A stretch of DNA of 39,982 bases from a virus (IMGVR_UViG_3300042294_004070:1-39982); one strand, 5' to 3'. Counted from the stretch's first letter, positions 457 through 23,552 are shown. Program-made: numbers and translations. The notes: generated by a model not told the origin, from the sequence alone.

Positions 457-1377
457 CTAAGATCCGGGATCAGGAATACCCCAAGTTATGTATATTTTTC
501 TGCCAGCTACATTATAAGGTTTAAGTGTATTTTCAAGATTAGGTCTAGTACCAAAAAATGTATAATCGTTTGAGGTTAAAACATTAGCAAACTTTAAAGG
601 AAGAGACATATTTACAACAAAAACAGACATTAATTCGTCTCCTAATACTATTACTTCAGGATTATATAATTTCCAATCTTTGATAAAGTCTTCATAAGTA
701 TAATCAGGATATGCTATGTCTTCTAAGTATATTGATTTTCTATCAAGTTTTTCCTCTCCACTATTCATTATGATATCAGTAAATACAGGATTAAGAGATG
801 CTATTTCTTGTTTATTATTTTTTACAAAAGAAAAAAACGGTGAATCTCCTCCTAACTTTATTCCCGTACTTTGAGGATTGATAGTAATTTCATCTAATTC
901 ATTATCTATTTCTTCTGTAGTAAAACTATTAGATCCTATTTTAGTAATCTCAAAACTTTCATTATAACCATTAATATTATGTGTAACAATAAATTTAAAA
1001 TGAAGGGGTAATTTTTGAAAAAATGCTAATGATTCTGCAGAGCTCGCATAAGATTCATCTCCATCCTCAACATCATTCATTTCTTCATATTCAAATATAT
1101 CATCTATTGTATGGGTTCCCTGGAGTGTATTTGTACGTTTTAATAAATTTAAAAGTTCGCTTATACTTCTAGCAAATCTTGAATTTATATCGTCACTATT
1201 GTTACCACCTACACGATAGATGAAATCAGCAAATAATGTTTTCTTAGTTAATAAGGTAAACGGGTTCAAACTATGAAATTGTCCTGTATTTCCAGGGTAG
1301 ATTTTTACGTCATTTAACTTGCTGTTTTCAGTAAGTTTGTTCTTAACTAGAAATTGCTTTAAATCAAATGAATCCAT
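457..1377 (-). CDS. Two-module putative capsid cargo protein with MDNFDLK-type leader
   Basis: The 306-aa protein starts with the leader MDSFDLKQFLVKNKLTENS, nearly the same as in the three genes at 22160-23552. At residues 21-32 it has a variant motif, L-N-D-V-K-I-Y-P-G-N-T-G. A degenerate second copy, L-D-E163-I-T-I-N-P-Q-S-T-G, lies mid-protein. The segment after it (SFVKNNKQEIA, then VAGRKIYITWGI near the C-terminus) is recognisably homologous to the second module of the 252-aa protein (SFIKQNQYEIA, VAGKKIMYINYNI). The protein is thus leader + module of about 140 aa + module of about 140 aa. If the motifs are prohead-protease sites it would mature into two polypeptides. No enzymatic motif is seen. 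It starts 5 bases beyond the stop of the 332-aa gene, so the two are probably co-transcribed. Confidence 0.8.
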   Translation of the reverse strand: MDSFDLKQFLVKNKLTENSKLNDVKIYPGNTGQFHSLNPFTLLTKKTLFADFIYRVGGNNSDDINSRFARSISELLNLLKRTNTLQGTHTIDDIFEYEEMNDVEDGDESYASSAESLAFFQKLPLHFKFIVTHNINGYNESFEITKIGSNSFTTEEIDNELDEITINPQSTGIKLGGDSPFFSFVKNNKQEIASLNPVFTDIIMNSGEEKLDRKSIYLEDIAYPDYTYEDFIKDWKLYNPEVIVLGDELMSVFVVNMSLPLKFANVLTSNDYTFFGTRPNLENTLKPYNVAGRKIYITWGIPDPGS

Positions 1378-1381
1378 TACT

Positions 1382-2380
1382 TTACTTCTTTTTAGCTTTT
1401 GGCTCAGGTTTTTTAGTCAAGGCAGCTTGTAATGCTTTAACCATGTTTTCTAAAGCGTTTTGCTCTTCAGGAGAAAATTCATAGTTGCCTTCTTTAAACT
1501 TAGCCATAGCATTTTGGAAGTAACCGGTTTCGGTTTTAGGTCTTCCTTTAGCACCAGGTACTGATGGTTCTTTACTGTATTTAGCTGGTTCAGTTACGAA
1601 ATCACCTGAAACTACAACACCAGCATCTTTCAAAGCAGAAACGATAGGTGCAGCACTAGCTGTATCTGATGATTGGAATTCCTCGTCGGCAATATGGGCT
1701 AAAGTACCATAAAAATCAATTGCTTTTGCTGTAAGAGGATCAGTATTAGGGTTAATAGGTTGACCAATTTTATCTTTATATTTTTGGAAATACTTAATTA
1801 CACGATCGAAACGAGTACTTTTCTTAAAACGGTCAGGTAAGTTAGCCATTTTTTCTTCCCAATCATCAGCTAATTTAGAAGGTTTAGCAATACGAGCCAT
1901 TTCATCTAAAGCCATTTCATCAACCATTTCTTCTTTCATAGTTTGGATAGGCTTCATATTACCTACATCATAGGTTTTATCAGGTCTTTGAGAAGGTGCT
2001 GTGTTAAAGTTTTTAGAATTAGGTCCAATAGGATCACCAACAGTATTAATAGCTTGAGAATCAGGAGATAACTCATCCATAGCTCGTTTAAGGGCAGCTA
2101 TTACTGTAGATTTAGAAACATTTTTAAGTTCTGAAAAGTCTAATGCAACTTTAAAAGCGCCATCTAATTCCGTAGGTTGATTAATAAAAGATAATTTTGC
2201 TACTACGTTAGGAGCATTTCCAATAGCTTTATTTAAGTTAGTTTCATCAGGAGTATTTATAGTTCCTTTAGCCATCTCTCTAACCATTTCTTTTACTTTC
2301 TTTTTGGTTAGTTTATTATCAACTGACTCAGTTAATAAAGGGTTATTTCTTAAATACTTGTGTAAATCAAAGTTATCCAT
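1382..2380 (-). CDS. Lysine-tailed putative internal head protein with MDNFDLH leader
   Basis: The 332-aa protein opens MDNFDLHKYLRNNPLLTES, related to the MDNFDLK leaders and containing L16-T17-E18, a fit to the T4 prohead-protease rule (L/I)-x-E. It lacks the E-I-K-P-N-T-G motif. The body is mostly helical and charged, with a Met/Glu-rich stretch (EEMVDEMALDEMAR) near the middle, a basic KGRPK segment near residue 280 and a C-terminal tail ending PEPKAKKK. A basic tail plus a cleavable leader is what one expects of a DNA-contacting internal or core protein of the head, but this is inference. A copy of the AATATTTATAA element lies 12 bases before the ATG. No database family is recognised. 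Confidence 0.75.
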   Translation of the reverse strand: MDNFDLHKYLRNNPLLTESVDNKLTKKKVKEMVREMAKGTINTPDETNLNKAIGNAPNVVAKLSFINQPTELDGAFKVALDFSELKNVSKSTVIAALKRAMDELSPDSQAINTVGDPIGPNSKNFNTAPSQRPDKTYDVGNMKPIQTMKEEMVDEMALDEMARIAKPSKLADDWEEKMANLPDRFKKSTRFDRVIKYFQKYKDKIGQPINPNTDPLTAKAIDFYGTLAHIADEEFQSSDTASAAPIVSALKDAGVVVSGDFVTEPAKYSKEPSVPGAKGRPKTETGYFQNAMAKFKEGNYEFSPEEQNALENMVKALQAALTKKPEPKAKKK

Positions 2381-2392
2381 TATAATATTTTG

Positions 2393-2403
2393 TTATAAAT
2401 ATT
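2393..2403 (-). promoter_or_regulatory. AATATTTATAA pre-start element
   Basis: Exact copy of the recurring 11-mer, 12 bases upstream of the ATG of the 332-aa gene and just after the stop of the 77-aa gene. Confidence 0.5.
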
Positions 2404-2419
2404 ACCTAATTACAGAAAA

Positions 2420-2653: not shown

Positions 2654-2654
2654 A

Positions 2655-4028
2655 TTATATAAAATTGATTATATCACCATCGTACCATGTTTCATCATGG
2701 TAATTTAAAATTGAGCTTTGCTCTAATAAAGATTCAGCAACATAAATTGCTTGTGCTCCAGAAACTGTAATTCCTCTTGCACTTAAAGCATCACCCACGA
2801 AATGTACGTTAGAAAATTTAGTTAAACTAAGATCTTTGTAACTTACTAAAGGTTCAGGTGAAAGATATTTTACTTCAGGAATATAAATACCCCAATCATC
2901 TTCTAGTGTTGGGAATACTTTCTTCATATCATCAATAAAATTAACAATATATTCAAAATATCCTTCAAACGCATCCATTACTTCTATTAATCCTAACCAA
3001 CTAATTTGGGTTGCACTTACACCATTACCTTCTGATGTTGTTGAAGGAGTACGAGATGGACTATAATATAAACCAGTTTCATTTGATTGTATTTTATTTA
3101 CAACATTACGCGACCATTTAAATGGGTCTTTAATGTTATTTAATTCCATAATAATACCAAAATTAGTCATCCCATTTAAATATTTAGGATCTTTTTTAGC
3201 ATGACCATTGTAAGTAACATCACCATAAGTTTCTTCCACAGCAACATAAGCGGCATTATTGTTTGTACAAAATGAACGTAATGATACTCCTTTATCTTCA
3301 AACTTACGATATAATTTAAAATCGTAGCTAATATCGATTAGTTTCTGGAAGTGATGTTGTGGTGCTTCAAATCGAACTCCAATTTGTACTGATTTAGGTT
3401 CATCGGGTAATGCGTATTCGTTTGCTAATTGTTGAGCAAAATCAATACCTGATTTGCCTACTGCAAAGATAAGTTCATCGTAATTATAATATTCTACTAA
3501 TTTAGGATTTTCACATACTGCTATTAAATCTTGTTTTTCAAAATCAATACTAATAACTTTAGTTTCCCATTGAAATTCAACACCTTTAGACACTAAATAA
3601 TCATACCAATTTTTAGCAATTTCGGATAAATAATCTGTACCTACGTGCCATACTGGGAATAATCGTAAACCAAAATGTGGTTTAATAAAATCGGGTTCAG
3701 CTACAGGATTTGAACATTGTACTTCTTCTGGTTTAGGATGGAAACGTTTAAAGTTAGTAATAACTTGATCCATTAGTTCCATTGCTTTATCCTCACCACA
3801 ATACTTAGATAATTGACCTCCAATTGCTGTATGGTAAGTCAATTTACCATCAGACCATCCTCCAGCACCTAACATACCTGTCATTACTTCCTCGGGTTTG
3901 CGATTGTATGGGTCTTTTCCCATATCAATAATAGTGATTAATTCGCCTGGGTAGTTGTTATCTACAAGTTTGGTTGCCGCATTGATACCCGCAACCCCTG
4001 CTCCTACAATTACAATTCTCTTATTCAT
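2655..4028 (-). CDS. FAD-dependent dehydrogenase (COG2509-like)
   Basis: The 457-aa protein is a complete flavoprotein. An N-terminal Rossmann motif G9-A-G11-V-A-G14 and an acidic end to the second strand (ITIID) bind FAD. A second dinucleotide-contact region near the C-terminus reads VHFVGDALSARGITVSGAQA, the usual G-D ... G-A motif closing the FAD site. The middle (IGVRFEAP, then RSFC254) resembles the uncharacterised FAD-dependent dehydrogenases of COG2509, whose substrate is unknown. The length is normal and nothing is broken. It lies just downstream of a strong terminator, so it has its own transcription signal, probably the ACATTTATAA variant 10 bases before the ATG. It also has one of the few SD-like stretches here (AGAGGAT). 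A metabolic enzyme among virion genes points to host reprogramming or redox protection, which is inference. Confidence 0.85.
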   Translation of the reverse strand: MNKRIVIVGAGVAGINAATKLVDNNYPGELITIIDMGKDPYNRKPEEVMTGMLGAGGWSDGKLTYHTAIGGQLSKYCGEDKAMELMDQVITNFKRFHPKPEEVQCSNPVAEPDFIKPHFGLRLFPVWHVGTDYLSEIAKNWYDYLVSKGVEFQWETKVISIDFEKQDLIAVCENPKLVEYYNYDELIFAVGKSGIDFAQQLANEYALPDEPKSVQIGVRFEAPQHHFQKLIDISYDFKLYRKFEDKGVSLRSFCTNNNAAYVAVEETYGDVTYNGHAKKDPKYLNGMTNFGIIMELNNIKDPFKWSRNVVNKIQSNETGLYYSPSRTPSTTSEGNGVSATQISWLGLIEVMDAFEGYFEYIVNFIDDMKKVFPTLEDDWGIYIPEVKYLSPEPLVSYKDLSLTKFSNVHFVGDALSARGITVSGAQAIYVAESLLEQSSILNYHDETWYDGDIINFI

Positions 4029-4152: not shown

Positions 4153-5157
4153 TTATGTAGTATAAATTACTATTTCTCCATTTTTATTAAAATAACCATC
4201 TTGTTTTTCTATCATAGTATAAAGAAATGAATGGCCATTAGAATCAGAAGTTAGTATAACACTAAATTCATCATTACTAATAATGGTAAACTTATCTTTT
4301 AATATTTTTTTAGCGGCAATATATTTAGGAATATTGTCTTGGATAGTTTCTATAGCCAACATAATTTCTTCTGCAAGAAAGTCTATGTCTTCAGGATTAT
4401 CAGATAACATTTCTGCTCTATCTCGAGCATAATCTTTTATATTTAAAGGATCATTTAATGTTAGAATATAATCAATTTCTTTTTTATCTTCATTAAAATA
4501 AAGCTTATAGTCTCCATTTAAAATATGATTAATATATTCGGCGTCGCGTATTGTGTTTTCATTCGCTTTAACATTAATAAAATTAAAAAATTGAATAGTA
4601 TCATAACTAATTTCACCATAATCTAAAATGTAGTCTTCTATAAAAGAAGTATCTATATCTATATATGGTTCATCAGTTATGGTTTTTTTTTTGGTAGGTT
4701 TAATTAATCTATTAACGGGTTGAGCTTTAATTTCACTAAAAATTTCTTTAATAATTTGTTTTAAATCTTTTTGTTTGTTCTTATATACAGGACTCCAAAT
4801 TTTATTTTCTTTAGCATGAACTATTTCATCTATAGGAGATAATTTTATAGTATGTCCTTGAATATTAGCGGTAACATATTTTGCTTTAGGATTGTGAAAA
4901 AAATCTAAACATGTTTTTATTTCGCGTATATGGTAAGTTTTTTTACTAGTCACCATACCCTTGTAAGGGAATTTTGTTTCATGTAAATCACCAAAAGAAA
5001 CGGGAGATATTATATCTAAATCTTTAACATCACGAGCAGGAATATGTTTTTGTAATATTAAAGCAAGACTTCCACCTAAGTAAAAATCGGGGTATTGTTT
5101 TTGTAAAGGAACAATATATTTAAGTAATACTTCTTTTATTTGTGATTTTTTAATCAT
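4153..5157 (-). CDS. Nucleotidyltransferase-like protein with internal EIKAQPVN motif
   Basis: The 334-aa protein has an N-terminal domain with the nucleotidyltransferase-fold signature G28-G29-S30-L-A-L followed by D46-L-D48, as in the MNT/AbiEii/CCA-type superfamily. A third acidic residue probably lies in the following strands (CLDFF). Such enzymes transfer NMP to proteins, RNA or antibiotics; the target here is unknown. At E142-I-K-A-Q-P-V-N the recurrent module motif separates this domain from a C-terminal acidic domain of about 190 aa that I do not recognise. The motif has lost its T-G (it continues R-L-I-K-P). Residues 7-9 (I-K-E) could also serve as an early protease site. It follows the 670-aa gene with a two-base gap. 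If packaged and cut at 142, it would deliver a free nucleotidyltransferase to the host. Confidence 0.75.
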   Translation of the reverse strand: MIKKSQIKEVLLKYIVPLQKQYPDFYLGGSLALILQKHIPARDVKDLDIISPVSFGDLHETKFPYKGMVTSKKTYHIREIKTCLDFFHNPKAKYVTANIQGHTIKLSPIDEIVHAKENKIWSPVYKNKQKDLKQIIKEIFSEIKAQPVNRLIKPTKKKTITDEPYIDIDTSFIEDYILDYGEISYDTIQFFNFINVKANENTIRDAEYINHILNGDYKLYFNEDKKEIDYILTLNDPLNIKDYARDRAEMLSDNPEDIDFLAEEIMLAIETIQDNIPKYIAAKKILKDKFTIISNDEFSVILTSDSNGHSFLYTMIEKQDGYFNKNGEIVIYTT

Positions 5158-5159: not shown

Positions 5160-7172
5160 TTATAAATCAGAGTATTTAATATATTTTCCTGTAGTTTTAT
5201 CAAAAGCGCCAAAAAGATTTCCATCATCATCCCAATCAGACCAAGTTACAGTTAATCCAGGTCCATCCTCCGATTTTACCACACTATCTCGTAGTTGGGG
5301 GTAATCATCTACTTGATCGTTACTACCGATATTAAGAGTATAAATTCTGCCTTTTAATTTTCTATAAATAGAATCAAAAAGTTCTAAGTCTTTAGAGGTC
5401 ATATATTCATTTTCTATATCATCTTCTATATTATCTCTATCAATAAAAGTATAGATTAAAGGTTCATCAGGGTTTCCTTCAGGTGTGTGTCCCGGATCAA
5501 AACCCATTAATTGTTTTTTAATCCATTCTTTTTCTTCTGGAGTAAGAGGAGGGGTGGTTCCTGTGTTTCCAGGTTGAACTTTAATTTCATCAACATTCCC
5601 ATCATTAGGTATTTTTAAAGCAGCTAAAATTTCATTAGCTGGTAGGTCTTTAATATGGTTAAATTTTAATTTAGTATAAGGGGAAACTAAATAAGTTTGT
5701 CCGGCCATCGGAGATCTTGTTTCTTTTCTAGCTATGATAATAGGAGTACCTTTATAGTTTCCTTCAATATAAAATGATTTGGCTTTATATTCAATTTCTA
5801 ATTTATTTATTTTTTCTATATCAGACAAATTATTAAATTCTTCATCAGATAATGATCCTCTATATACTAAACCAATAGATATTTTTGTAGGTGTTATATT
5901 TAGTTTGTTAAAAAAATATTCAGCATTCTTTTTAGTAGTAGGATTTAATTTTTCTTGGGCATAAACCCAAGGATATTTGCTACCTATTTCATTTCCACTA
6001 AGATTGTATTTTCCTAAAGTTATACCTAATTTTTTAATTTTACTACTTACTCCTGTGTTTTTAGGTTGAACTTTAATTTCAGTAAATACGTCTTTATCAT
6101 CTTCATCATTAGGGATATCTTTGTTAATTTTAGCATCATTAGCTTTTAAATTACGCTCAATATCCCTCATAGTATCCATTGCCCATTTTTCTTGAGTAGG
6201 TGTTAGTTTATTTTCAAGTGCATTTACAACAAAATTAACAAATTCAGTTTCATCATCTATTTTATACATTTCAGGAAAAAAAAGATCTCTTACTCTAGTA
6301 TCATTAATTTCACTTTTAATATATACTTTATTAATAGCATCAAACATAATTTTACCAAAACGTATATCATTGGGTTCATTAGATAATTTATCTACTTTAC
6401 TTACAATCTTTTTATTTTGTTCAGCATCGGCTCCAAATCCTTGTAAAGATAATATTTCATATAATCCTTTTACAATTTCGTGAACTAACATTGGAAAACA
6501 GATAGCTGTAGCATTAATTACAAGAGTTTCTGTTTCTTCATCATAGTAAGCTTCAGATTCACCTCCTTGTGATTTTTGACCTTGAGCTAATAGGGCTAGC
6601 ATCTGAGCAATAGCATTTTCATCATCATAAATACCAAATACAGATTTCATTAACTCATTGTAACGGTTAATCATATCATCACCTAGATCATCTAGATATT
6701 CTCTAAATAGTAGGAATGCAAAAGTGCCACGGATAGAGGCACCTTGAGTAATTCCGTTTATGATACGGCGTTTTTTCTCACCAGTTAAAGTAGGTTGAGG
6801 TAAATTAACATCAGGTTGTTCTTCCTCTTCTTCACCACCCGGAGCTCCTTTGGGAAGTTCACCTTTACCTATACTAGCATTGATTTTTATTTTTGAGTAC
6901 TTAATGATAGGATAAGCTTGGGTAACAATTTCTTTAGCTATTTCCTCAAGTAAATCAATATGAGGTTGTTCAGCTTCAATAAGTTCAGGAAGTAATGTAC
7001 TAGCTGTACTCATCATTTGTCTTAAATTTTTTCCTAGTTTTACTAATTCGTCTTTAGATTGTTTTTTTAATAAAGACATAGTTTCAGGAGAAAATATTTC
7101 CTCGTAATCTACCTCACTCAAACGTTGGATTTTTTCCTCAATTACTTGTTTAGCTAATTGTGTTAATTTCAT
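5160..7172 (-). CDS. Modular putative capsid polyprotein (three segments)
   Basis: The 670-aa protein consists of an N-terminal part (1-365) and two modules bordered by the recurrent motif: F-T-E365-I-K-V-Q-P-K-N-T-G and V-D-E529-I-K-V-Q-P-G-N-T-G. The N-terminal part is largely helical, with a poly-Glu stretch near residue 115 and a hydrophobic segment (INATAICFPMLVHEIVKG). The motif HEIVKG lacks the second His of a zincin, so I do not call it a protease. The last module (530-670: LTPEEKEWI ... SKDLELFDSI ... IKYSDL) is a clear homologue of residues 555-708 of the 833-aa protein at 17879-20380, with 49 bases of nearly identical DNA. The 366-529 module begins like other A-type modules (NTGVSSKIK). 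The gene overlaps the stop of the 665-aa gene by ATGA, so the two are translationally coupled. Confidence 0.8.
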   Translation of the reverse strand: MKLTQLAKQVIEEKIQRLSEVDYEEIFSPETMSLLKKQSKDELVKLGKNLRQMMSTASTLLPELIEAEQPHIDLLEEIAKEIVTQAYPIIKYSKIKINASIGKGELPKGAPGGEEEEEQPDVNLPQPTLTGEKKRRIINGITQGASIRGTFAFLLFREYLDDLGDDMINRYNELMKSVFGIYDDENAIAQMLALLAQGQKSQGGESEAYYDEETETLVINATAICFPMLVHEIVKGLYEILSLQGFGADAEQNKKIVSKVDKLSNEPNDIRFGKIMFDAINKVYIKSEINDTRVRDLFFPEMYKIDDETEFVNFVVNALENKLTPTQEKWAMDTMRDIERNLKANDAKINKDIPNDEDDKDVFTEIKVQPKNTGVSSKIKKLGITLGKYNLSGNEIGSKYPWVYAQEKLNPTTKKNAEYFFNKLNITPTKISIGLVYRGSLSDEEFNNLSDIEKINKLEIEYKAKSFYIEGNYKGTPIIIARKETRSPMAGQTYLVSPYTKLKFNHIKDLPANEILAALKIPNDGNVDEIKVQPGNTGTTPPLTPEEKEWIKKQLMGFDPGHTPEGNPDEPLIYTFIDRDNIEDDIENEYMTSKDLELFDSIYRKLKGRIYTLNIGSNDQVDDYPQLRDSVVKSEDGPGLTVTWSDWDDDGNLFGAFDKTTGKYIKYSDL
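5352..5400. repeat. Copy 1 of a 49-bp near-identical repeat inside the B module
   Basis: Identical to 18476-18524 except for one base (5366). It encodes the same part of the B module (around SKDLELFDSI.RKLK) in two different polyproteins, implying recent duplication or recombination. Confidence 0.85.
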
Positions 7173-9166
7173 TGGCGTAGTTTTTTAAAACGTTGAATTA
7201 TTTTTCCAATTATTTCTTGTGTATCTTCCTCACTAAGAGCTTTAGCTGGTCTTTTTTTAGGTGCTGATGGAGGAGGAATTAAAGGATTTTTAGTTCCAGG
7301 TTTAGGTTTAGTTGTTGGAGGAGCAACAGCTGGTTTAACCTCATTTTCTGTCTGTATACCTGCTAATTTTTGGAATTTTTTAACTAATTCGTTATTTTCT
7401 TCTAAGTTGTTCATATCAAATCTAATTTCGTCCCCATCCTCATCTAATAGTTTTAATCTATCATATTCGGTTTGAGGTAAATACCATGTTCTTTGTCCTG
7501 AAATTTTATATATGGGTCCAGCAGGTGTAGAATCATATTCTATTTCACGTCCATTTTTATAAATTTCTAAAGTATAGATATTGTCTTTAACTACTTTACC
7601 ATTTTCATCTATTAATGAAAATATATCTGAGTTGGTAGATGTAGGGCAAAGCATAAATACTTTATTGTTAATTTGTATCATTTGAGGTACACCCATGAAG
7701 AAATCACTATGTCTTTCTACACCGTTACCTTGTTCAAATAATTTATCAACTAATTCAAGATATAATTTACGTTCTTGAGTAGATAAATCATTGTATGTTT
7801 GTGCTGAAATAGGGGCAACACTTACTAAACGTAAGGGAGCCATTGTACTATTTTCAATATCTGGATTAGTACTATAACTGATGTCTTTAAAAGATATACT
7901 ATATAAGTTGTATACTTGTTTTTGAGATGAACTCATGAATTTTTCAGCCTCGGGAGGTAAAAATCCAAACTTTTTAATTTGCTTATCAATATAATTCTTA
8001 ACTACAGTATCAGAAAAATATTTTTCAATCTCATCAAATGTCAGGTATTCATCTTCAAATTCCGCTAGATATTTTTGTTGTAAATCATCTTTTAAATAAG
8101 GAATAAAAGGATATGGTAATGGTTCTTTAGGGTATCTAGTAAATCTAAAATCAGGATATCTTTTTAAAAGACCAACATTTGATTTTAATTCATCAAAAGT
8201 ACATATTCTACCAAAGTTAATACATTCATTTTTTAAATCTAAATCTAAAGATTTAAATATATTAGAATCAATTATATTTCTGTTACTAGCGTTTGCTTGA
8301 ACATATGTTTTTTTATCAGCATATGATAATTCAGCAAATTGTTCAAAAGATAATCTTTTACCTTTCATTGCCGCTTGAGCAATTTCCTCACTACTTGGAG
8401 GAATATATTTAAATATAGATTCTAATCCTTTTAATTTACTACCTAATTCAGCAGGTAATAATTTTATTACATCATCCCACGTTTTGGCGGGTTTATCTCC
8501 CATGTTAGTGGCATCCGTAACAGCATATTCTCCGTTTTCCATAGCATGTATTACTACAGCATGGTAAGGATCATCAAAACGACCTCCGTCTTTTCTATCA
8601 GGACGTGTTCTATCAAAAACAAAATAGAACATTCTACTTTTTCCACCTACACCCTGGAAGCGATATCCAGAGTACATACTTCCTTGAGTACGAGCTATAC
8701 ACCAAGAATAGTATTGGTTTCTACCATACTTAATACATTTATGTTCAGCATCACCTCTATATATTTCTAAATTATCTTTATCATATATTTTATCAGCATC
8801 GGCTTCAGCACTGTTAACTAATTCTTCTTTTTCTTTTTTAGCTTGAGCTTTAGAAAAAGCACCATCAATTAATTTTTCTAATTCATCAAATTTTTTATAT
8901 CTAGTAATTTCTAAATAAAAATTCTTTTTTAATGAATCATCAGATTTTAAATCTCTAGGTAATAACGCTAACACAGTTGGATCTTTATCTTCAACTTTTT
9001 TCTTTAATGCAGATTTGATTTGATCAAACCGTTTTACGTAGTAAAGAATCTGTTCATCATCTAAATTAGGTTTTTGTTGCTTGTATAAACCAAGCATTTG
9101 CTTAAGTATCTTATCAGAAAACTCAGATAATATAAACTCTTTTAATAATGAATGGAACTTAACCAT
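7169..9166 (-). CDS. Large putative cargo protein with cleavable-type leader and SWC motif
   Basis: The 665-aa protein begins MVKFHSLLKE, with L8-K9-E10 at the same place as the I8-A9-E10 cleavage site of T4 internal proteins. Residues about 140-215 carry a pattern I know from many large phage proteins: C-x-K-Y-G then W155-C156, then aromatic strands ending FYFVFDRTR and YHAVVIHA ... TDATN. Its function is unknown. The C-terminal part has a Pro/Lys-rich linker (PTTKPKPGTKNP, near residue 625) and a final basic helix (IIQRFKKLRQ). No catalytic motif is certain. A diverged pre-start element (ATATTTATTATAT) precedes the ATG. It is coupled to the following 670-aa gene by an ATGA overlap. Confidence 0.8.
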   Translation of the reverse strand: MVKFHSLLKEFILSEFSDKILKQMLGLYKQQKPNLDDEQILYYVKRFDQIKSALKKKVEDKDPTVLALLPRDLKSDDSLKKNFYLEITRYKKFDELEKLIDGAFSKAQAKKEKEELVNSAEADADKIYDKDNLEIYRGDAEHKCIKYGRNQYYSWCIARTQGSMYSGYRFQGVGGKSRMFYFVFDRTRPDRKDGGRFDDPYHAVVIHAMENGEYAVTDATNMGDKPAKTWDDVIKLLPAELGSKLKGLESIFKYIPPSSEEIAQAAMKGKRLSFEQFAELSYADKKTYVQANASNRNIIDSNIFKSLDLDLKNECINFGRICTFDELKSNVGLLKRYPDFRFTRYPKEPLPYPFIPYLKDDLQQKYLAEFEDEYLTFDEIEKYFSDTVVKNYIDKQIKKFGFLPPEAEKFMSSSQKQVYNLYSISFKDISYSTNPDIENSTMAPLRLVSVAPISAQTYNDLSTQERKLYLELVDKLFEQGNGVERHSDFFMGVPQMIQINNKVFMLCPTSTNSDIFSLIDENGKVVKDNIYTLEIYKNGREIEYDSTPAGPIYKISGQRTWYLPQTEYDRLKLLDEDGDEIRFDMNNLEENNELVKKFQKLAGIQTENEVKPAVAPPTTKPKPGTKNPLIPPPSAPKKRPAKALSEEDTQEIIGKIIQRFKKLRQ

Positions 9167-9180: not shown

Positions 9181-9441
9181 TTAAGACTTATGTATTTTAA
9201 GTTTTAATATACCTGTCCCTTTAATTACACGATGCCATTCGTGTCTAGGAATATGTATAGGTTGATTTATAGAGGTAGGTAACTGGTTTTCTAATTGCAA
9301 TTTCCAGTCAGTAGCGCCGATAATTTCAATTATCCTATGTTCATCATCACGATGCCACAAAAGTTCAATTGGATCGATATTATCGCAAAATTCGCGTATA
9401 ATATATTCGTCTGTAACTTCTATGTCGGTATAGGGTCTCAT
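9181..9441 (-). CDS. Small cupin-like phage protein
   Basis: The 86-aa protein reads like the short beta-barrel proteins common in T4-like phages: W-H-R-D-x-E-H-R near residue 30, then W-K-L-Q-L-x-N-x-L-P, then I-P-R-H-E-W-H-R-V-I-K-G-T-G. The repeated His/Glu and the I-P-x-x-x-x-H-R strand are typical of cupin-type folds, where they may bind a metal. The role in the phage is unknown. It has no cargo leader, which sets it apart from its upstream neighbours, but it overlaps the stop of the Cys-containing 79-aa gene by ATGA and so belongs to the same operon. Assignment to cupins is by pattern only. Confidence 0.7.
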   Translation of the reverse strand: MRPYTDIEVTDEYIIREFCDNIDPIELLWHRDDEHRIIEIIGATDWKLQLENQLPTSINQPIHIPRHEWHRVIKGTGILKLKIHKS

Positions 9442-9677
9442 TTGCCTTTAGGTATAAACCAATTTGAACACCACTTTGAAGGGTCTTTAATTGGGTTACC
9501 TTCATTATCTACTAATTCTTTAGTACCCATATATACTTGATATTGTTTATTTGAGCACATATGTTTTTCGTCTTCAATGTAATGGTACTTACAAACATGA
9601 CAACCAAATCCTATTGGTGAGTACATGTATGGAGGGTATTCTTTATCCTCGTTTAATATGTCTGAAAATTTTATCAT
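9438..9677 (-). CDS. Small four-cysteine protein with ILNE leader
   Basis: The 79-aa protein opens MIKFSDILNE, the shared 10-residue leader with L8-N9-E10, followed by a body with C26-x-x-C29, C41 and C70-S-N-W. Four cysteines in this spacing could bind one zinc ion. The function is unknown. The start overlaps the stop of the preceding 201-aa gene as TAATG, the same junction type used in this run of leader-bearing genes, which behaves like an array of cassettes. If the leader is removed after E10, a 69-aa mature protein would remain. Confidence 0.75.
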   Translation of the reverse strand: MIKFSDILNEDKEYPPYMYSPIGFGCHVCKYHYIEDEKHMCSNKQYQVYMGTKELVDNEGNPIKDPSKWCSNWFIPKGK

Positions 9678-10282
9678 TATCGTTGTAAATTAAATCTTGA
9701 TACTCTAGCTTTAGCTTCTACCTCATCATAAAATGAAGGTTCTTCAGGATATGCAAATATTTTATTTGCCCCCGGTACTGGGATTTCACTGTTAGTTACG
9801 ATACCAGAAAGTTTATCTCCTTTTATAGGAGTATACCCTGTTATTCCTTTAGACATTTTATCCATAACCATGTTATAAATTCTTTGTCTTTTGGTAGAAT
9901 CTCCAGTAACTTGTTCTTCATGACCTTTAATTCCTTTCCAAAATACGTACTCTGGTTTGTATGTAGCAATATATTCTTTAAGAGCTTTACCTACAGTTGC
10001 TAAAATTTTTCCAAAATTCTCACCACCTTCTTCAGTTTTAGGAGTAGTTTTAAATGCTTTAGGAAAAAAAGTTAATTCAGTTCCCCAGTTATATTTTTGG
10101 TCTTGTTTTTTACTTCGGCCGTTCCATTTACTATCAAATCGAACATAATATTCTTTTCCAGTATCGGTTGTAAACTCATAATCAACATAATTATTAAAAT
10201 TACCTTCTTTATGATAACTAGGAGAATACAGTGAATATGGTGAATCAGCTATTTCGTTTAATATGTCAATCAATTTTATCAT
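9677..10282 (-). CDS. Putative cargo protein with MIKLIDILNE leader
   Basis: The 201-aa protein starts MIKLIDILNE, identical over ten residues to two neighbouring genes that are otherwise unrelated. The body has a beta-rich first half (VDYEFTTDTGKEYYVRFD), a central helix (ILATVGKALKEYIATYKPEYVFWKG) and a segment TKRQRIYNMVMDKM. That segment resembles a stretch in other phage hypothetical proteins in which a long-lived R-x-R-I-Y-x-x-M motif follows an aromatic strand. No function is known. It is tightly packed: TAATG overlaps at both ends. Confidence 0.75.
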   Translation of the reverse strand: MIKLIDILNEIADSPYSLYSPSYHKEGNFNNYVDYEFTTDTGKEYYVRFDSKWNGRSKKQDQKYNWGTELTFFPKAFKTTPKTEEGGENFGKILATVGKALKEYIATYKPEYVFWKGIKGHEEQVTGDSTKRQRIYNMVMDKMSKGITGYTPIKGDKLSGIVTNSEIPVPGANKIFAYPEEPSFYDEVEAKARVSRFNLQR

Positions 10283-10923
10283 TATGAAAGTTTAAATATA
10301 ATTTCATTTACCAATTCTTCTGTTGTTTTTCTTTTCTTATTTAAATCAAATAAACCTATATTTTTTTTACCCTCATAATATTGTCTAATACTACTAATAG
10401 ATTGTTGTATATCATCATCCTTTATTCCTGCTTCTAACCCAGATTGTCCCATCTTATCTGCTCTATCTTGTCTACTTTTTTTCAAAAATTCAATATATGG
10501 TTTATCATCATTAGGAGATGGTGGAACACCTAAAACAAAAATGTTAGATAAATCCTTAAGTAAATCGGGATTTTTTATACTATCCCCACCAATGTCTAAA
10601 ACAACTTTTTTATTGCCATATTTTTGTAATAGTTTAGAAAGGACACATCTTTTATAAGCATCATTTGATGAGCCGTAGTTATGTCCATCTTTAGTTCTTA
10701 CAATATTTACCTCAACACCTTTTTCACCTTTACATGCATTTTCATACTCTTCACTACCTTCTCTTTCATCTACATTAACATATGGTATCCCTAATTTCTT
10801 TGCTAGTGCTTCGGCAGTTGTTGATTTCCCGGCACCTGCAGAGCCAACAAAAACAATTGGTTTACTTTCATACTGTTTAGCTTCAATTAAGCTTTCGTTT
10901 AATATGTCAATTAATTTTATCAT
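10282..10923 (-). CDS. P-loop kinase-like protein with MIKLIDILNE leader
   Basis: The 213-aa protein is a small nucleoside/shikimate-kinase-like P-loop enzyme carrying the cargo leader. After the leader (1-10) and a short linker comes PIVFVGSAGAGKST with Walker A at G27-S-A-G-A-G32-K33-S34-T35. Then a helix (AEALAKKLGIPYVNVDE) follows, and a Walker B-like strand (KKVVLDIGG). A lid-type basic stretch (KKSRQDRADK) lies in the second half. The substrate is unknown. The linker itself offers a second candidate site (S-L-I-E14). The fusion of an enzyme to a short leader also found on unrelated proteins is the best single hint that leaders are targeting signals rather than part of the folds. Confidence 0.8.
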   Translation of the reverse strand: MIKLIDILNESLIEAKQYESKPIVFVGSAGAGKSTTAEALAKKLGIPYVNVDEREGSEEYENACKGEKGVEVNIVRTKDGHNYGSSNDAYKRCVLSKLLQKYGNKKVVLDIGGDSIKNPDLLKDLSNIFVLGVPPSPNDDKPYIEFLKKSRQDRADKMGQSGLEAGIKDDDIQQSISSIRQYYEGKKNIGLFDLNKKRKTTEELVNEIIFKLS

Positions 10924-11531
10924 TGGTCGCGGTACATTTCATCATACATAATATCAAATAATTTTAAGTTTCCTTGTTTATCTAAACCTATGTTTTTACG
11001 GTGTATATCTAAATCATATGATTTTAATTTAGGTAAAGTTTTATATAGTTTATCAAGAAAATTGTATATTTTAGTTAATAATAGTATTAAATCTGTTTTT
11101 TTAAGTTGTTTTGCTTCTTTTAAAATACGATTATAAACATCGCTTTTATCTTTTTTTAATTCTATGTCTATCCCCGATACTATATCTTGGGAATAAACAT
11201 TCATTAGAGAATTACCTCCTCTAACCCATTCTATGCCCGCTTCATTTTTTGTAAAATCTTGTAATTCTTTTAATCCGGGTACAGGTGTTTGAACTTTTTC
11301 CATAATAACATACTTAGGACTATAATCATATATCTTAACAAAAAATTCAGGGTATTTACTCATCAACTCATATTGATCTTTTTTAGTTTTTGGGTTGGTA
11401 ATAGTATATTTTTTTATAACTTTATCAGGAGCAAATTTAAGATCGTATGTTTCTCCTTCTGCAGATTCTTCATCTCCTAATTTAGTTTTTTTCTGGATGT
11501 TTATTTCAAGTATGTCTAGAAATTTTATCAT
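10920..11531 (-). CDS. Protein-kinase-like protein with MIKFLDILE leader
   Basis: I place the start at the ATG at 11529-11531, not at the longer in-frame ATG at 11549. It gives the leader MIKFLDILE, aligned with its neighbours, and the same ATGA overlap with the preceding gene. The 203-aa product has the signature of a protein-kinase or aminoglycoside-kinase fold: a VIKKY strand for the ATP-anchoring Lys, a hinge-like strand YVIMEKV, a catalytic loop D-L-D-I-H-R-K-N-I-G-L-D and a metal-binding strand L-K-L-F-D-I, the DFG equivalent. The HRD aspartate is replaced by the D-x-H-x-x-N arrangement of APH/ABC1-type kinases. It is small for a kinase, so activity is uncertain. A packaged kinase could modify host proteins at infection, as T7 gp0.7 and T4 Alt do by other chemistry. 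Confidence 0.75.
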   Translation of the reverse strand: MIKFLDILEINIQKKTKLGDEESAEGETYDLKFAPDKVIKKYTITNPKTKKDQYELMSKYPEFFVKIYDYSPKYVIMEKVQTPVPGLKELQDFTKNEAGIEWVRGGNSLMNVYSQDIVSGIDIELKKDKSDVYNRILKEAKQLKKTDLILLLTKIYNFLDKLYKTLPKLKSYDLDIHRKNIGLDKQGNLKLFDIMYDEMYRDQ

Positions 11532-15328: not shown

Positions 15329-16915
15329 TTATATTCCTGTATTTTCAGGTTTAACTTTAATTTCTGATATTTTATCTGAGTGTGGATTTTTGATTAGATA
15401 ATTACCATTTTCATCTTGAGTAATACTTAAATTAAGGGGTAACATTTGTCTAGTACCTTTTTTAGTATTTATATCAACTAATTTAGAATTTTCTAATCCT
15501 TTTTTAAAGGCCATTACAACTTGTTGAGGCATTTTAGTATCAATTAATTTATTCAAATCAGAATATCCTATAGTAGTATTGTCTGTTTTTCTACCTCTTT
15601 TTATTTTATCTAAAGCAGTTTTAACTAGTGGATCAATATACATTTTACCACCATAATATTTAATATTCTCACCAAAAGTATCTTTTATACTTTTAAGGAA
15701 AGTAAATGTTTTAGGGACGTAGTTTTTACCTTTTTTTTTTTCTTCCTCTCCCAACATAGCATCTAGTGAAGGTTCTTTTTCTTCAAAATCTAGATAATGT
15801 TTAGCTTTTACTAAATAATCTTTAGTCAAATGAATTTTTTCTTGCCACCAATCAGGAAAGTCAATTTCAACATTCATCTTGTCATATTTGTCAAGCATTT
15901 TGTATAATTCAATAGCATACTTAGCTATACGATATACATTTGCTTTTAACATATGAGGCTCATCATCCTCGTGACCTAAGTCGATATCTTCATTTTTAGC
16001 TTTAACTCCACGACCTATTAAAACATCAGCGTATGTAGTTTCACCATCATCATTTAAGTCAGGAAAACCTTCTTTCATTGCTTGAGAGGTAGCAATAGGT
16101 CCTGCTTTTTTAGAAGGCATACCACTATCAATTAACGCATCATATATTTCACCACGTTTTTTCTTTTGAGCGGGAGTCATTTTTTTCTCAGAAACAACTT
16201 TACTTATTAATTCCTTTAATAAGTTTTCTTTAGTAATGTCTTTGGGAGTTTTTTTAGTAGTCATTTTATAATTAGTTATTCCAACGTTATTTAATACAGT
16301 AGATACTATTTTTTCTATATTTATTTTAGTTAAAGTATTTTTAGATAAAGAAAACATCAATGAGTTTTCATCTACTTTTTCAAAATCAAGTATAGAACGG
16401 CTAGGTTTAGTTTCAAAATACTTTTTAATTAATTGTACTTGATTATCTGTAGTATTTTTAGTCCATTCAAAATTAGGATCATTTAATTCCTCTCTGCGTT
16501 TATTAAGTAATGCTTTACGTTGGCCTGGATTGCCTGGAGGTTCTAGTAATCCTTTAATATATTTATCTAATTTAGGGTCTTGTGACCTAAATTGTTTTAG
16601 ATAAGATCCATAGTTATTAGGGTCCTGGAGACTTTCAATTGCTTTATTTAAATCTTCTTTGGATTTAAAAATAATTAAAGGATTTTGATCAAATAATTGG
16701 CGTTGCATTGATTGATCATCTTCACTTTCTTTTATGTCTAATTCACTAATATATTTATTAACTTCTCTTTGTATATCCGCAGGTAATTCCCCATAATTGT
16801 ATACAGCATACATTTTATTAAATCTTAGTTCATCCATCATAGATTCTTTTCTAGGTAAGGTTAAACTATCGTAAACATTTTTTACTTTAGGTTTATATAT
16901 AGGCATGTAATACAT
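15329..16915 (-). CDS. Putative structural/cargo polyprotein with EF-hand loop, ending on EIKVKPENTG
   Basis: The 528-aa protein contains a helical region K-K-M-T-P-A-Q-K-K-K-R-G ... S-Q-A-M-K-E-G followed by a perfect EF-hand/dockerin-type loop, D286-L-N288-D-D290-G-E-T-T-Y-A-D297. The next about 75 residues (HEDDEPHMLKANVYRIAKYA ... DWWQEKIHLTKDYL) form an all-helical domain of a type found in phage capsid-associated and prohead polyproteins. The last eleven residues are E518-I-K-V-K-P-E-N-T-G-I, preceded by I-S: a perfect (I)-x-E site immediately before the stop. The protein thus ends on the module motif, as if a following module had been lost. Two ATGs are possible (16915, 16906); the first is used here. 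Confidence 0.8.
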   Translation of the reverse strand: MYYMPIYKPKVKNVYDSLTLPRKESMMDELRFNKMYAVYNYGELPADIQREVNKYISELDIKESEDDQSMQRQLFDQNPLIIFKSKEDLNKAIESLQDPNNYGSYLKQFRSQDPKLDKYIKGLLEPPGNPGQRKALLNKRREELNDPNFEWTKNTTDNQVQLIKKYFETKPSRSILDFEKVDENSLMFSLSKNTLTKINIEKIVSTVLNNVGITNYKMTTKKTPKDITKENLLKELISKVVSEKKMTPAQKKKRGEIYDALIDSGMPSKKAGPIATSQAMKEGFPDLNDDGETTYADVLIGRGVKAKNEDIDLGHEDDEPHMLKANVYRIAKYAIELYKMLDKYDKMNVEIDFPDWWQEKIHLTKDYLVKAKHYLDFEEKEPSLDAMLGEEEKKKGKNYVPKTFTFLKSIKDTFGENIKYYGGKMYIDPLVKTALDKIKRGRKTDNTTIGYSDLNKLIDTKMPQQVVMAFKKGLENSKLVDINTKKGTRQMLPLNLSITQDENGNYLIKNPHSDKISEIKVKPENTGI

Positions 16916-17878: not shown

Positions 17879-20380
17879 CTAGCTTATAGGGTTAACTTCT
17901 ATATTAAAATTTTTTTCTATATTTATATCCTCAATATATGGATGATTCATCTTAAAAGGAATACCTAAATCTTTTAATCTTTGTACCCATATATCATATC
18001 GTTCAGGATAATTTGAATTAGCCTCTAAATCCATTGATATTTCACCTTCATTATTTGTAAATATTTCAGTAAACATTAATGGGAAATTTTTAAGTTTTAT
18101 TATTCCTGGTAGGAAATTCTTAGGTGAAAGTTTCAAAAAATCATAGATATCAGAATATGATTTGATTTTAAGGTCATTAGGGAAAAATTCAAGATTTATT
18201 TTTCCTTTTATCCCCGTTTTTTTAGGTTGAACTTTGATTTCATCAACTTTACCAATTTTATCCAGATCAGAATATTGAAGATATTCTCCTGTATCTTTAT
18301 CAAATGCACCGTATTCTGAGCCATAGCTACCATCTAGTCTATCAGACATAGTAATAGTTAATTCTGGGTTATTATTGCTATATTCAGCTCTTACTACTGC
18401 ATCTCGAAGATCATAATCTTCAGGGTATTTTTTTATGTTAGGATCGTGCCCACGATTAAAGGTATAAATTTTATTTTTTAATTTTCTATGAATAGAATCA
18501 AAAAGTTCTAAGTCTTTAGAGGTCCTGTATTCGCCTTGTATCTCATCTTCTATCTCTTTTCTATTGACAAATTTGTATTCTAATGGAGCATCAGAATCTA
18601 AATCTGTGTTATTAGATGAGTAAAAGCGATCAATAGTATATGCTTGATTATCAATCCATTCTTTTTCTTCAGAGGTTAGAGCACCAGCCACTCCTGTGTT
18701 TTTAGGTTGGACTTTAATTTCATTAGTAGATTGCTCAATATTTAAAGTTATATACTTATTAACATCTATATCTGTAATTCCAAAATTACGTCCCTGAGTT
18801 AGAATTTTATCTATATATGGAATATTAAGATTATCTAGTTTATTTTTCCAAGCCTCAAGATACTCATATGGTGTGTCTGTATTAGTAAGTATGATGGTTA
18901 GTATAACTATAGATGAATCATCTCTATGTAATATACCTTGCATTTTAGGTAAATCTTTAGAACTTATCCACCCACCAAAGTGTCTTTCATTAACATCATT
19001 TATTGATTTTATATCTTTAGGGTAAAAAAAATAAGAAGGATCTAATTTAAAATTTACTTTTAATTTGCTACCTACTCCTGTATTTTTAGGTTGGAGTTTA
19101 ATTTCATCAAGTTGGTCTTGAGAATTTTCCCAGCAACGAAGTAATATGTTTCCTAACTGGTACGCTTCTTCCTCTAATCCTTTTAAATTGTCATCTTGAT
19201 TTACATTTTGTGTACCAATATTACCTAATCTTCCTTGCATATTTTGCATATGATGAATCATCTCATGAGCAAACGAACGGAGTATGTCCTTAGGGTGTCT
19301 ATCGGTTATATACAAAGTAATCGCGCAATTTTGTGGATCATAATATGCTGTTTTACCCAATACTTTAGAGGCATTAGCCTCATCGTCAACAAATTTTACT
19401 TTAGGTAAAGGACGAATTTCAATATCACTATCCATAAACTGAGTGAGTGATTTGATAAAAGGTATTAATTCATTTTGGGGTGTGTTATGGAGTGCTTTAC
19501 AACGAACTGCCTCATTTAATTGATTTTCTTTTAAATAAAAACGAGTTTCATTCGGTGTTTCCTCCATTTTAACATGAGGTATATTTTTCTTAAAAAATGC
19601 TTTATATAATTCATTTCGTTGATTAATACCTCTTAATCTAACTGCTTCACTACCTTTAGTTTTAGTTTCAGCTGGAGTGTAAAGTAAAATATCTAAATTA
19701 TTTTTAACTATATCTTTAGCTAATTCTTTCTTGATAATTGAAAATATAGTAGCCATTATTTTATATGGCTCATTTACATTAGTCATTTCATATGACTCAT
19801 TAGCGGTAAAATCTACTTTAACAATGTTTTTATCTAATTCATTATCATAATCATATTCAAAAATAACATCATAAAAAATATCCCCAGCCGAAAAATCATA
19901 TACTATAGTACCAAATAATTCATCTCCATCTAATTCTAAATCATCCAAACGTTTAACATAATTATAAGGGGTAGATGATAATTCTCCTACTTCATTTACA
20001 TCATTATTAAATTCTTTAACTAATTCAATAGCAAAAGCAGATAACCCGTAAGGGTCTTTTCTCATTTTAATACCACCCGGAGTTTTAAATTCTTTACCTG
20101 TTTTAACATCAGCATTATAACCACAAGTACCTTCATCAATTTTAGATAACTTATCGTAATATTTAGGATCTTCAAACAGATGATCCATAGCTATTTCTTT
20201 AGCGGCTGATTTATTAGTAGTATGTTCGGCTTCAACTTTAATACCTTTTTCAAGTTGTTTCTCTAATTTATCTTTTTCAACTCCATGCTTAGCGGCAATA
20301 TCATCTAAAGTTTTATTTTTAGCTAATCCGCCGGGTACTTTATTAAGTTCATTAAGTAAATTTTCTAGGGATAATTCCAT
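17879..20380 (-). CDS. Modular putative capsid polyprotein with zinc-metallopeptidase motif
   Basis: The 833-aa protein has five parts. Residues 1-11 (MELSLENLLNE) fit the cargo leader with L9-N-E11. Residues about 36-85 (KVEAEHTTNKSAAKEIAMDH ... DPKYYDKL) match a small helical domain widespread in phages (DUF5661-like). Residues about 300-425 contain a zincin motif H372-E373-M-I-H376 with a candidate third ligand in the Glu cluster 403-405, so this part may be an active zinc peptidase. Then three modules begin at motif copies L-D-E426, T-N-E554 and V-D-E714, each followed by I-K-x-Q-P-K-(N/K)-T-G. Modules 427-554 and 715-833 are homologous to each other; module 555-714 is homologous to the C-terminus of the 670-aa protein. 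No similar named protein is known to me. It carries an exact pre-start element two bases upstream. Confidence 0.8.
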   Translation of the reverse strand: MELSLENLLNELNKVPGGLAKNKTLDDIAAKHGVEKDKLEKQLEKGIKVEAEHTTNKSAAKEIAMDHLFEDPKYYDKLSKIDEGTCGYNADVKTGKEFKTPGGIKMRKDPYGLSAFAIELVKEFNNDVNEVGELSSTPYNYVKRLDDLELDGDELFGTIVYDFSAGDIFYDVIFEYDYDNELDKNIVKVDFTANESYEMTNVNEPYKIMATIFSIIKKELAKDIVKNNLDILLYTPAETKTKGSEAVRLRGINQRNELYKAFFKKNIPHVKMEETPNETRFYLKENQLNEAVRCKALHNTPQNELIPFIKSLTQFMDSDIEIRPLPKVKFVDDEANASKVLGKTAYYDPQNCAITLYITDRHPKDILRSFAHEMIHHMQNMQGRLGNIGTQNVNQDDNLKGLEEEAYQLGNILLRCWENSQDQLDEIKLQPKNTGVGSKLKVNFKLDPSYFFYPKDIKSINDVNERHFGGWISSKDLPKMQGILHRDDSSIVILTIILTNTDTPYEYLEAWKNKLDNLNIPYIDKILTQGRNFGITDIDVNKYITLNIEQSTNEIKVQPKNTGVAGALTSEEKEWIDNQAYTIDRFYSSNNTDLDSDAPLEYKFVNRKEIEDEIQGEYRTSKDLELFDSIHRKLKNKIYTFNRGHDPNIKKYPEDYDLRDAVVRAEYSNNNPELTITMSDRLDGSYGSEYGAFDKDTGEYLQYSDLDKIGKVDEIKVQPKKTGIKGKINLEFFPNDLKIKSYSDIYDFLKLSPKNFLPGIIKLKNFPLMFTEIFTNNEGEISMDLEANSNYPERYDIWVQRLKDLGIPFKMNHPYIEDINIEKNFNIEVNPIS
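18476..18524. repeat. Copy 2 of the 49-bp near-identical repeat
   Basis: Matches 5352-5400 with one mismatch (18490). It lies within the B-type module of the 833-aa protein. Confidence 0.85.
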
Positions 20381-20382: not shown

Positions 20383-20393
20383 TTATAAATATT
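20383..20393 (-). promoter_or_regulatory. AATATTTATAA pre-start element
   Basis: Exact 11-mer two bases upstream of the ATG at 20380. Its first two A lie in the TAA stop of the PD-(D/E)XK nuclease gene, so the intergenic region consists of little else. Confidence 0.55.
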
Positions 20394-22100: not shown

Positions 22101-22112
22101 TTGGTGAATATA

Positions 22113-22142
22113 CAAAAAAAGGCTTGGTTTCCCAAGCCTTAG
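22113..22142 (-). terminator. Strong intrinsic terminator between leader-protein genes and primase
   Basis: On the minus strand AAGGCTTGG - GAAA - CCAAGCCTT forms a 9-bp GC-containing stem with a GAAA tetraloop, followed by a run of T. It lies 18 bases after the stop of the 94-aa gene. The T run reaches the first possible start codon of the primase frame. Confidence 0.88.
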
Positions 22143-22159
22143 TTAAAATATTTATTAAA

Positions 22160-22444
22160 TTAGTTAATATAATAATCACTTAAAATTCCTGATTTGGAAT
22201 AACTAGCAATAACATTTTTTAAGCTGTTATAATCATCTAAAGTATCAATTTGCATGTATTCTTTAGAGTCATCCCCATCTTCATCTATTTCTATGAAAAC
22301 CATTTTACCTTTTGCCTCTTCAAATGTAAAGTCTAATGCATTTTTTATCCCGGTATTTCCAGGGACGGCTTTAATTTCTTTTAAACGAGAATTTTCAGTT
22401 AATTTATTTTCTACTAAAAAATGTTTTAAGTCAAAATTATCCAT
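22160..22444 (-). CDS. Small leader protein, MDNFDLK family
   Basis: The 94-aa product is leader plus a short acidic module. Residues 1-19 are the MDNFDLKHFLVENKLTENS leader, which holds L10-V-E12 and L15-T-E17. L21-K-E23-I-K-A-V-P-G-N-T-G follows, a perfect (L)-x-E site at 23. The module after it is only about 62 aa (FIEIDEDGDDSKEYMQID). The function is unknown. It is the last of three tandem genes with the same leader and is followed by the strong terminator. A one-base-longer variant of the pre-start element (AATATTTAATAA) lies two bases upstream. Confidence 0.78.
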   Translation of the reverse strand: MDNFDLKHFLVENKLTENSRLKEIKAVPGNTGIKNALDFTFEEAKGKMVFIEIDEDGDDSKEYMQIDTLDDYNSLKNVIASYSKSGILSDYYIN

Positions 22445-22449
22445 AGTTA

Positions 22450-23208
22450 TTAAATATTATAATTAATATACATTATTTTTTTTCCTGCTACTGTTATTTC
22501 CTCTGGTTCATCACCATTTTCACCTCTAAAATTATCATCTACATCCTCAGGATAGCTAAATGATACTCCATACATATATTCTCCTCCACCTTCTACTTCA
22601 TCCTCCTCATCCTCAAGATCAATATTAACCCGTGCTATTGCTGATGGATTATTTAAAGTATCCATCTCAATATCTTCTAAACGGACTGCCCCCATCTTCT
22701 TAGCGATTTCATATTGGTTTTGTTTAATAAAAGATAATAAATCTATTTTCATTCCTGTATTTTTAGGGACGGCTTTAATTTCTTCTAAAGTATCAGGACT
22801 AACAATTTTATATCCATCTTTTAAAAGACTATTTAAATGAAATTGGGTTTCTAGTGTTTTATAGGGAAAAGAAACAGGGTCTGTATTATAGGGTTTACCT
22901 GTAGTTGTTGATCTTAAATCTACAAACCAATCATCAAATCCTTCTTCCTCAGACCCTTCATGGTCAAATTCCATGTCTTTTATAACATATGAGTCTTGTA
23001 TTGTAATATTATAATCTGTAGGTGAAGGCATATAATTACCTTTAAATTTTTGTTTGTCCCACATTTTAGGAGTAATGATATCACCAACTTTTAGGTCTAC
23101 GAATCTTGTAGTTCCTGTATTTCCAGGGGTGGTTTTAATTTCACCTAAACGAGAATTTTCAGTTAATTTGTTTTTTACTAAAAATTGCTTTAGGTCAAAA
23201 TTGTCCAT
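22450..23208 (-). CDS. Two-module leader protein, MDNFDLK family
   Basis: The 252-aa protein carries the same leader and two motif copies: L-G-E23-I-K-T-T-P-G-N-T-G and L-E-E143-I-K-A-V-P-K-N-T-G, both perfect (L)-x-E sites. Module 1 (24-143) starts TTRFVDL like the body of the next gene (TTRFITL). Module 2 (144-252) is homologous to the second half of the 306-aa protein at 457-1377. Module 2 is very acidic (DLEDEEDEVEGGGEY). No enzymatic motif is visible. An exact AATATTTATAA element precedes the start by two bases. Confidence 0.78.
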   Translation of the reverse strand: MDNFDLKQFLVKNKLTENSRLGEIKTTPGNTGTTRFVDLKVGDIITPKMWDKQKFKGNYMPSPTDYNITIQDSYVIKDMEFDHEGSEEEGFDDWFVDLRSTTTGKPYNTDPVSFPYKTLETQFHLNSLLKDGYKIVSPDTLEEIKAVPKNTGMKIDLLSFIKQNQYEIAKKMGAVRLEDIEMDTLNNPSAIARVNIDLEDEEDEVEGGGEYMYGVSFSYPEDVDDNFRGENGDEPEEITVAGKKIMYINYNI

Positions 23209-23210
23209 AA

Positions 23211-23221
23211 TTATAAATATT
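23211..23221 (-). promoter_or_regulatory. AATATTTATAA pre-start element
   Basis: Exact 11-mer two bases before the ATG at 23208, overlapping the TAA stop of the 110-aa gene. Confidence 0.55.
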
Positions 23222-23552
23222 ATTCCATTCCATAATCTCTAAGACCATCAAATGTTCTAGAAAATTCCTTTAAATAATCTGAAATAAATCTTAATTCTCT
23301 AAATTCATTATCAGGTATAGTATTTAATTTTACCAATTCATTTTCAGTTGATGATCCATCTTCCATTTTTTTAACTATTTGTTGAAGTTGTTCTAATTGG
23401 TTTAAAATATTAATTGAAAGAGAATGCATTTGTTCTAAAGTTATAAATCTTGTAGTTCCTGTATTTCCAGGGATGGCTTTAATTTCTTTTAAATGAGAAT
23501 TAGAAGTTATTTTATTCTCTACTAAAAAATGTTTCAAGTCAAAATTGTCCAT
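23220..23552 (-). CDS. Small leader protein, MDNFDLK family, helical body
   Basis: The 110-aa protein has the leader MDNFDLKHFLVENKITSNS and the motif L-K-E23-I-K-A-I-P-G-N-T-G-T-T-R-F. The body is a helical, partly coiled-coil segment (INILNQLEQLQQIVKKMED). It shares only the leader, motif and the first residues TTRF with the next gene, so the leader and bodies have separate histories. The function is unknown. An exact pre-start element lies two bases upstream. Confidence 0.78.
   Translation of the reverse strand: MDNFDLKHFLVENKITSNSHLKEIKAIPGNTGTTRFITLEQMHSLSINILNQLEQLQQIVKKMEDGSSTENELVKLNTIPDNEFRELRFISDYLKEFSRTFDGLRDYGME

Follow-up and report, generated by a model that had tools for sequence, protein, structure and literature searches.

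The stretch of DNA analysed here, referred to as the window, is a single linear virus record of 39,982 nucleotides (IMGVR_UViG_3300042294_004070:1-39982). It covers only part of the genome of a T4-type myophage, a relative of Flavobacterium phage immuto. Over 39.5 kb the window is 99.9% identical to a 70,303-base contig (G001), which beyond the window encodes a terminase, a gp20-type portal, an S77 prohead protease and a gp23-type capsid protein. The protease (L056:13771-14388; PF03420, E 3e-30; PHROG head maturation protease) adjoins the gp20 and gp23 homologues. A prohead-protease family search within the window gave no match, the window being a fragment. Among cultured phages, the nearest relatives are Flavobacterium phages (immuto), with a baseplate protein 47% identical over the full length and a similar gene order: primase, exonuclease, motif-region genes, terminase, portal, protease and capsid. 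Two other genes were seen in further stretches. In L210 a gene with paired Cys motifs (7333-8019), endonuclease-like by eye, lies between the prohead protease and scaffold genes, and L057 (6973-10303; 66973-70303 in G001) carries a tail-fibre-like gene with a very long collagen-like GGTGAQ/GGTGPQ repeat.

The genes under study form an array on the minus strand, and their proteins share the motif E-I-K-x-x-P-x-N-T-G, of which all copies given here are likewise on the minus strand. Three of the proteins consist of an N-terminal leader (residues 1-23) followed by one or two modules: the 110-aa protein (23220..23552; one module), the 252-aa protein (22450..23208; module 2, motif, module 3) and the 94-aa protein (22160..22444; module 4). 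In each, the motif starts at E23, the end of the leader: EIKAIPGNTG (23457..23486, HLKE), EIKTTPGNTG (23113..23142, RLGE) and EIKAVPGNTG (22349..22378, RLKE), respectively. The 252-aa protein has an additional, internal copy at E143 (EIKAVPKNTG, 22753..22782, TLEE). The 306-aa protein (457..1377) has the same architecture of a leader and two modules with the variants DVKIYPGNTG at D23 (1282..1311, after the leader; KLND) and EITINPQSTG at E163 (862..891, ELDE). A leaderless gene for a 101-aa protein (118..423) begins directly at the motif, as MKAQPVNTG (397-423, just outside the 457-23552 region).

In the larger proteins the modules are attached to carriers. The 833-aa protein (17879..20380) starts with an LLNE-type N-terminus, continues with DUF5661 (Pfam PF18905) and an HExxH segment, and ends with three motif-led modules at E426 (EIKLQPKNTG, 19076..19105, QLDE), E554 (EIKVQPKNTG, 18692..18721, STNE) and E714 (EIKVQPKKTG, 18212..18241, KVDE). 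Its residues 307-420 are common to immuto gene 183. The 670-aa protein (5160..7172) is composed of a carrier and modules 8 and 6, with motif copies at E365 (EIKVQPKNTG, 6051..6080, VFTE) and E529 (EIKVQPGNTG, 5559..5588, NVDE). The 334-aa protein (4153..5157; weak match to PHROG 33731) combines a nucleotidyltransferase-like N-terminus (GGSLAL...DLDI, by eye) with module 9, and its copy at E142 has lost the T-G (EIKAQPVNRL, 4705..4734, IFSE). In the 528-aa protein (15329..16915) the motif at E518 (EIKVKPENTG, 15335..15364, KISE) is followed by Ile and the stop codon, leaving what reads as an empty docking site. Almost no matches to the motif proteins were found in Pfam or PHROG, and the modules had no Pfam hits. 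The signs of catalytic domains are the DUF5661 and HExxH segment of the 833-aa protein and the nucleotidyltransferase-like pattern of the 334-aa protein, the latter recognised by eye only. The mean AlphaFold2 pLDDT was 33 for the 833-aa protein (two sequences) and 32 for the 252-aa protein (single sequence), values too low for either model to be used. The array region also contains a 457-aa FAD/NAD-dependent oxidoreductase-like protein (2655-4028; PF07992, E 1.7e-07).

Every motif copy listed in the earlier note was found at its given residue. The strict form EIKxxPxNTG occurs nine times in the 13,065 amino acids of the window, where 6.9e-5 matches are expected from composition and none was obtained in 2000 shuffles. 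In the window, 11 copies retain I/V-K-x-x-P-x-N/K-T-G; the residue in front of I/V-K is Glu in ten of them and Asp in one. It had been claimed that most of these positions are close to the rule of the T4 prohead protease gp21, which cleaves after L/I-x-E (PMC9026906). In its strict form the rule holds for seven of the 12 copies with Glu (LKE twice, LGE, LEE, LDE twice, ISE) and fails for VDE (twice), FTE, FSE and TNE. All internal window copies have Glu at P1, and their P3 is Leu or Ile in 4/9, Val in two, Phe in two and Thr in one. When 13 internal copies, counted by eye over the window, G001 and G005, are taken together, P3 is Leu, Ile or Val in nine (P = 3e-4). The description of the motif as a mark of module borders is supported, except that the copy in the 528-aa protein closes its protein and separates no two domains.

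The N-terminal copies form the end of a leader, MDNFDLKxFLVENKLTxNSRLxE (also read as ...KLTENSRLxE), that is widespread and looks, from its sequence, like a T4-type capsid-targeting sequence, a point that the earlier note had missed. The leader pattern matches more than 100 IMG/VR stretches. It is carried by 113 distinct environmental-phage proteins, where one leader stands in front of many differing downstream sequences. A [LIV]-x-E tripeptide directly follows the leader (within eight residues) in 111 of the 113 proteins, against a shuffle mean of 24, with Leu at P3 in 77, Ile in 24 and Val in 10. The internal proteins of T4 carry capsid-targeting propeptides of 10-19 residues (PMC9026906), and it is the closeness of the leader and its [LIV]-x-E to the gp21 rule that makes the two alike. 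One of the two exceptions is a homologue of the 306-aa protein of the window and reads L-N-D; in T4 IPIII, Asp at that position of the targeting sequence retains targeting and blocks processing (PMC9026906). Most leader proteins outside the relatives of the window lack I-K-x-x-P-x-N-T-G afterwards. The leader is therefore a general one, and the extended motif is a peculiarity of the relatives of the window. About a dozen other IMG/VR proteins with the strict motif (e.g. L013, L020, L023, L024, L032 and L034) have flanks that match neither the leader nor the module families, and they were taken as chance matches. Positions 1-600 of the window differ by about 10% from the 70-kb contig, the remainder matching at 99.9%, and lack two leader genes of that contig (353 and 119 aa).

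Another type of start, MIKLxDILxE followed by E-I-K-x-x-P, was found in L009, L192, L224, L261, L268, L269, L279 and L281; the search demanded E-I-K, so it gives no measure of how often the extension follows this leader. The window itself contains genes that begin with MIKLIDILNE or MIKFSDILNE ahead of unrelated domains (9438-12142), among them a P-loop kinase-like domain (10282-10923). As far as can be judged from their sequences, these starts look like a second family of capsid-targeting-like leaders.

Splitting of the proteins at the motif yielded 21 module clusters of 67 to 192 amino acids. With the motif removed, no significant similarity was found between them, the best hhalign probability being 8% with profiles of mostly one to four sequences each. 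Some modules are related copies, such as the second modules of the 833-aa and the 670-aa proteins (51%), and modules 1 and 3 of the 833-aa protein are weakly alike (27% over 105 amino acids, motif counted in). A 150-aa gene between the portal and the protease has a module placed after LYKEIKAIPGSTG; its relatives in L209 and L210 are without the module and stop near the same LEELFREI-type sequence. In G001, one internal motif copy retains leader-like remains, FSFMVTENSKLNEIK.

The DNA of the motif also acts as a site of module exchange between phages, a role that was overlooked in the earlier note and that explains much of the repetition of the motif. In two sister phages, G005 and L321, seven gains, losses or swaps of modules have their breakpoint inside or at the edge of motif DNA, as read from metagenome assemblies. 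G005 (28.9 kb) shares long blocks with G001 that are about 92-96% identical. In its first case, the 670-aa carrier is joined to module 9, which the window has on the 334-aa protein, in place of module 6. The left part is 98% identical to one parent and the right part 92% to the other, and the switch occurs within GATGAAATTAAAG (E529 of the 670-aa and E142 of the 334-aa protein). The partner also switches in the motif where module 2 is joined to module 4 (E143 of the 252-aa and E23 of the 94-aa protein) and where the leader of the 110-aa gene is joined to a different module, module 3 (again with E143 of the 252-aa protein as crossover point). At a fourth junction the leader of the 94-aa gene is joined to module 2, and at a fifth a 114-aa module has been gained or lost: the G005 counterpart of the 528-aa protein carries it right after the same motif. 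In total, the comparison of G005 with G001 gave 13 breakpoints, compiled by eye from blast blocks. Five of them fall at motif copies, and these copies occupy 2.4% of the contig when a 20-bp margin is added (P ~2e-4, hit chance doubled). In L321, module 8 (492 bp) is missing from the 670-aa protein with both ends at motif copies (E365 and E529), and the nucleotidyltransferase-like gene homologous to that of the 334-aa protein contains an extra 342-bp cassette bounded by motif copies. The flanks in L321 are more diverged, and the crossover base is therefore placed less sharply. An assembly artefact was considered and rejected as the origin of the swaps: the exact identity between the recombining copies of the first case is about 14 bp, which is shorter than an assembler misjoin usually requires, and neither arm is the same as the 70-kb contig. 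A gene for a GIY-YIG endonuclease of the SegE type (23564-24004; PF19835, E 2.7e-25) adjoins the cassette array, and another GIY-YIG gene is present in L321 (5134-5766).

Taken together, the array probably consists of exchangeable head-cargo cassettes, each bordered by a predicted prohead-protease site and a constrained mature N-terminus; packaging, cleavage and ejection are steps that we infer from sequence. The motif genes would encode internal head proteins of a T4-type phage, predicted to be ejected as cargo. Single-module proteins would be directed into the head by the 23-residue capsid-targeting-like leader with its [LIV]-x-E end, while the remaining modules would travel attached to carrier proteins, the gene of one of which lies within the head cluster. 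Each module would start at the motif, with the Glu as predicted P1 of the S77 prohead protease and I-K-x-x-P-x-N-T-G as the N-terminal start of the released module. Recombination between copies of the approximately 30-bp repeat at each border could then delete, add or swap whole modules in frame while the site is preserved. Tentatively, and with somewhat less confidence than in this general scheme, it can be proposed that a single element of 10 codons unites the protease cut site, an N-terminal signal that the released cargo requires and the crossover point, so that the cassettes would be plugged into an ejected arsenal.

A rival explanation is that the motif is a mere recombination scar or homology linker: copies of a leader end would have been scattered through duplication and fusion events, with the multi-module proteins acting uncut, in the manner of polyvalent proteins. 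The codons of the motif copies are strongly skewed relative to genome usage (ATT 18/20, ACA 15/20, GGA 16/20), and these shared unusual choices indicate that the copies share a common ancestry in their DNA and did not arise independently. This is what a scar would leave, as are the module breakpoints at the motif and the leader-like remains in G001. The amino acids, however, are constrained as well. Among 13 motif copies found via the leader alone, Lys and Pro are invariant and Glu, Ile and Gly show one change each, although the third-position diversity is 0.4-0.5 at the Glu, Ile, Pro and Gly codons. Amino acids that are kept while synonymous positions vary point to selection also at the protein level, and a Glu almost fixed ahead of I-K also speaks against a scar. 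Furthermore, leaderless homologues in the window, G001, G005 and L029 start with M-K-x-Q-P-x-N-T-G (MKLQPxNTG in the last three), and the window gene uses different codons at Thr and Gly. These genes retain the motif where a cut is impossible, so the part behind the cut matters without cleavage. An origin as a mere scar is thus considered unlikely. The earlier proposal that I-K-x-x-P-x-N-T-G is conserved beyond the needs of cleavage is supported by the leaderless genes and the silent variation, and the sequences favour a function of the mature N-terminus that goes beyond being cut, as a signal or a structural strand.

Instead of marking a tag, the conservation of the amino acids could stem from a first strand and turn that the modules have in common. 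Taken further, the motif would be neither tag nor cleavage site and would belong to one fast-diverging superfamily of small domains. Several modules look like short strand-helix domains by eye, and the weak likeness of modules 1 and 3 of the 833-aa protein fits such a common origin. Against it stand the 21 clusters without significant similarity (at the small profile sizes given above), their wide spread of lengths and the copy in the 528-aa protein with no module behind it, which make the superfamily rather improbable, more so than the scar. A sortase-like or other sorting signal, suggested by the resemblance of P-x-N-T-G to LPxTG, is highly improbable. The likeness is superficial: the L-P-x-T-G spacing is not kept, a C-terminal hydrophobic segment with a basic tail was not seen in the sequences inspected, and the position of the copies, internal or N-terminal and ahead of domain-length modules, contradicts it.

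The preferred reading, that of exchangeable head cargo, has parallels in known systems. The T4 internal proteins IPI-III and Alt, cut by gp21, likewise have a short N-terminal leader with an L/I-x-E end and variable cargo behind it, and the S77 prohead protease and T4-type head genes occur in the same phage group. The T4 internal proteins, however, have one leader each, whereas the present multi-module proteins contain the site repeatedly, with a fixed I-K-x-x-P-x-N-T-G behind it, and the site doubles as the exchange point. Head proteins of the giant phages SPN3US, phiKZ and 201phi2-1 are similarly cut several times after Glu; the extra cuts remove propeptides, but a shared motif after the cut and module shuffling are not described in the parts of that account consulted (PMC10052503). 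Polyvalent proteins are injected multi-domain proteins with many domain rearrangements, some of which are thought to process themselves via an embedded peptidase; in the sections consulted, a recurrent border motif was not found (Iyer et al. 2017, PMC5512222). Immuto (Immutovirus) shares the similar gene order, homologous carrier domains and the same leader (gene 179, NSRLLE followed by Val), but E-I-K-x-x-P-x-N-T-G was not seen in its translated genes. Among cultured phages, the leader was thus found in immuto and the motif was not found. Capsid-targeting leaders with prohead-protease maturation (T4), multiple cuts (giant phages) and multi-domain injected proteins (polyvalent proteins) are known kinds. 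What seems new is that a repeated element resembling a cut site, followed by a fixed sequence, serves as exchange point; neither a description of the motif nor this combination was found in open-access papers.

If the proposal is correct, the motif would offer a sequence handle on head-packaged, host-injected proteins of uncultured phages that are otherwise unrecognisable, and with the leader by itself over 100 candidate cargo proteins can already be picked out. It would also show how a phage may reshuffle its cargo in frame and still have that cargo released.
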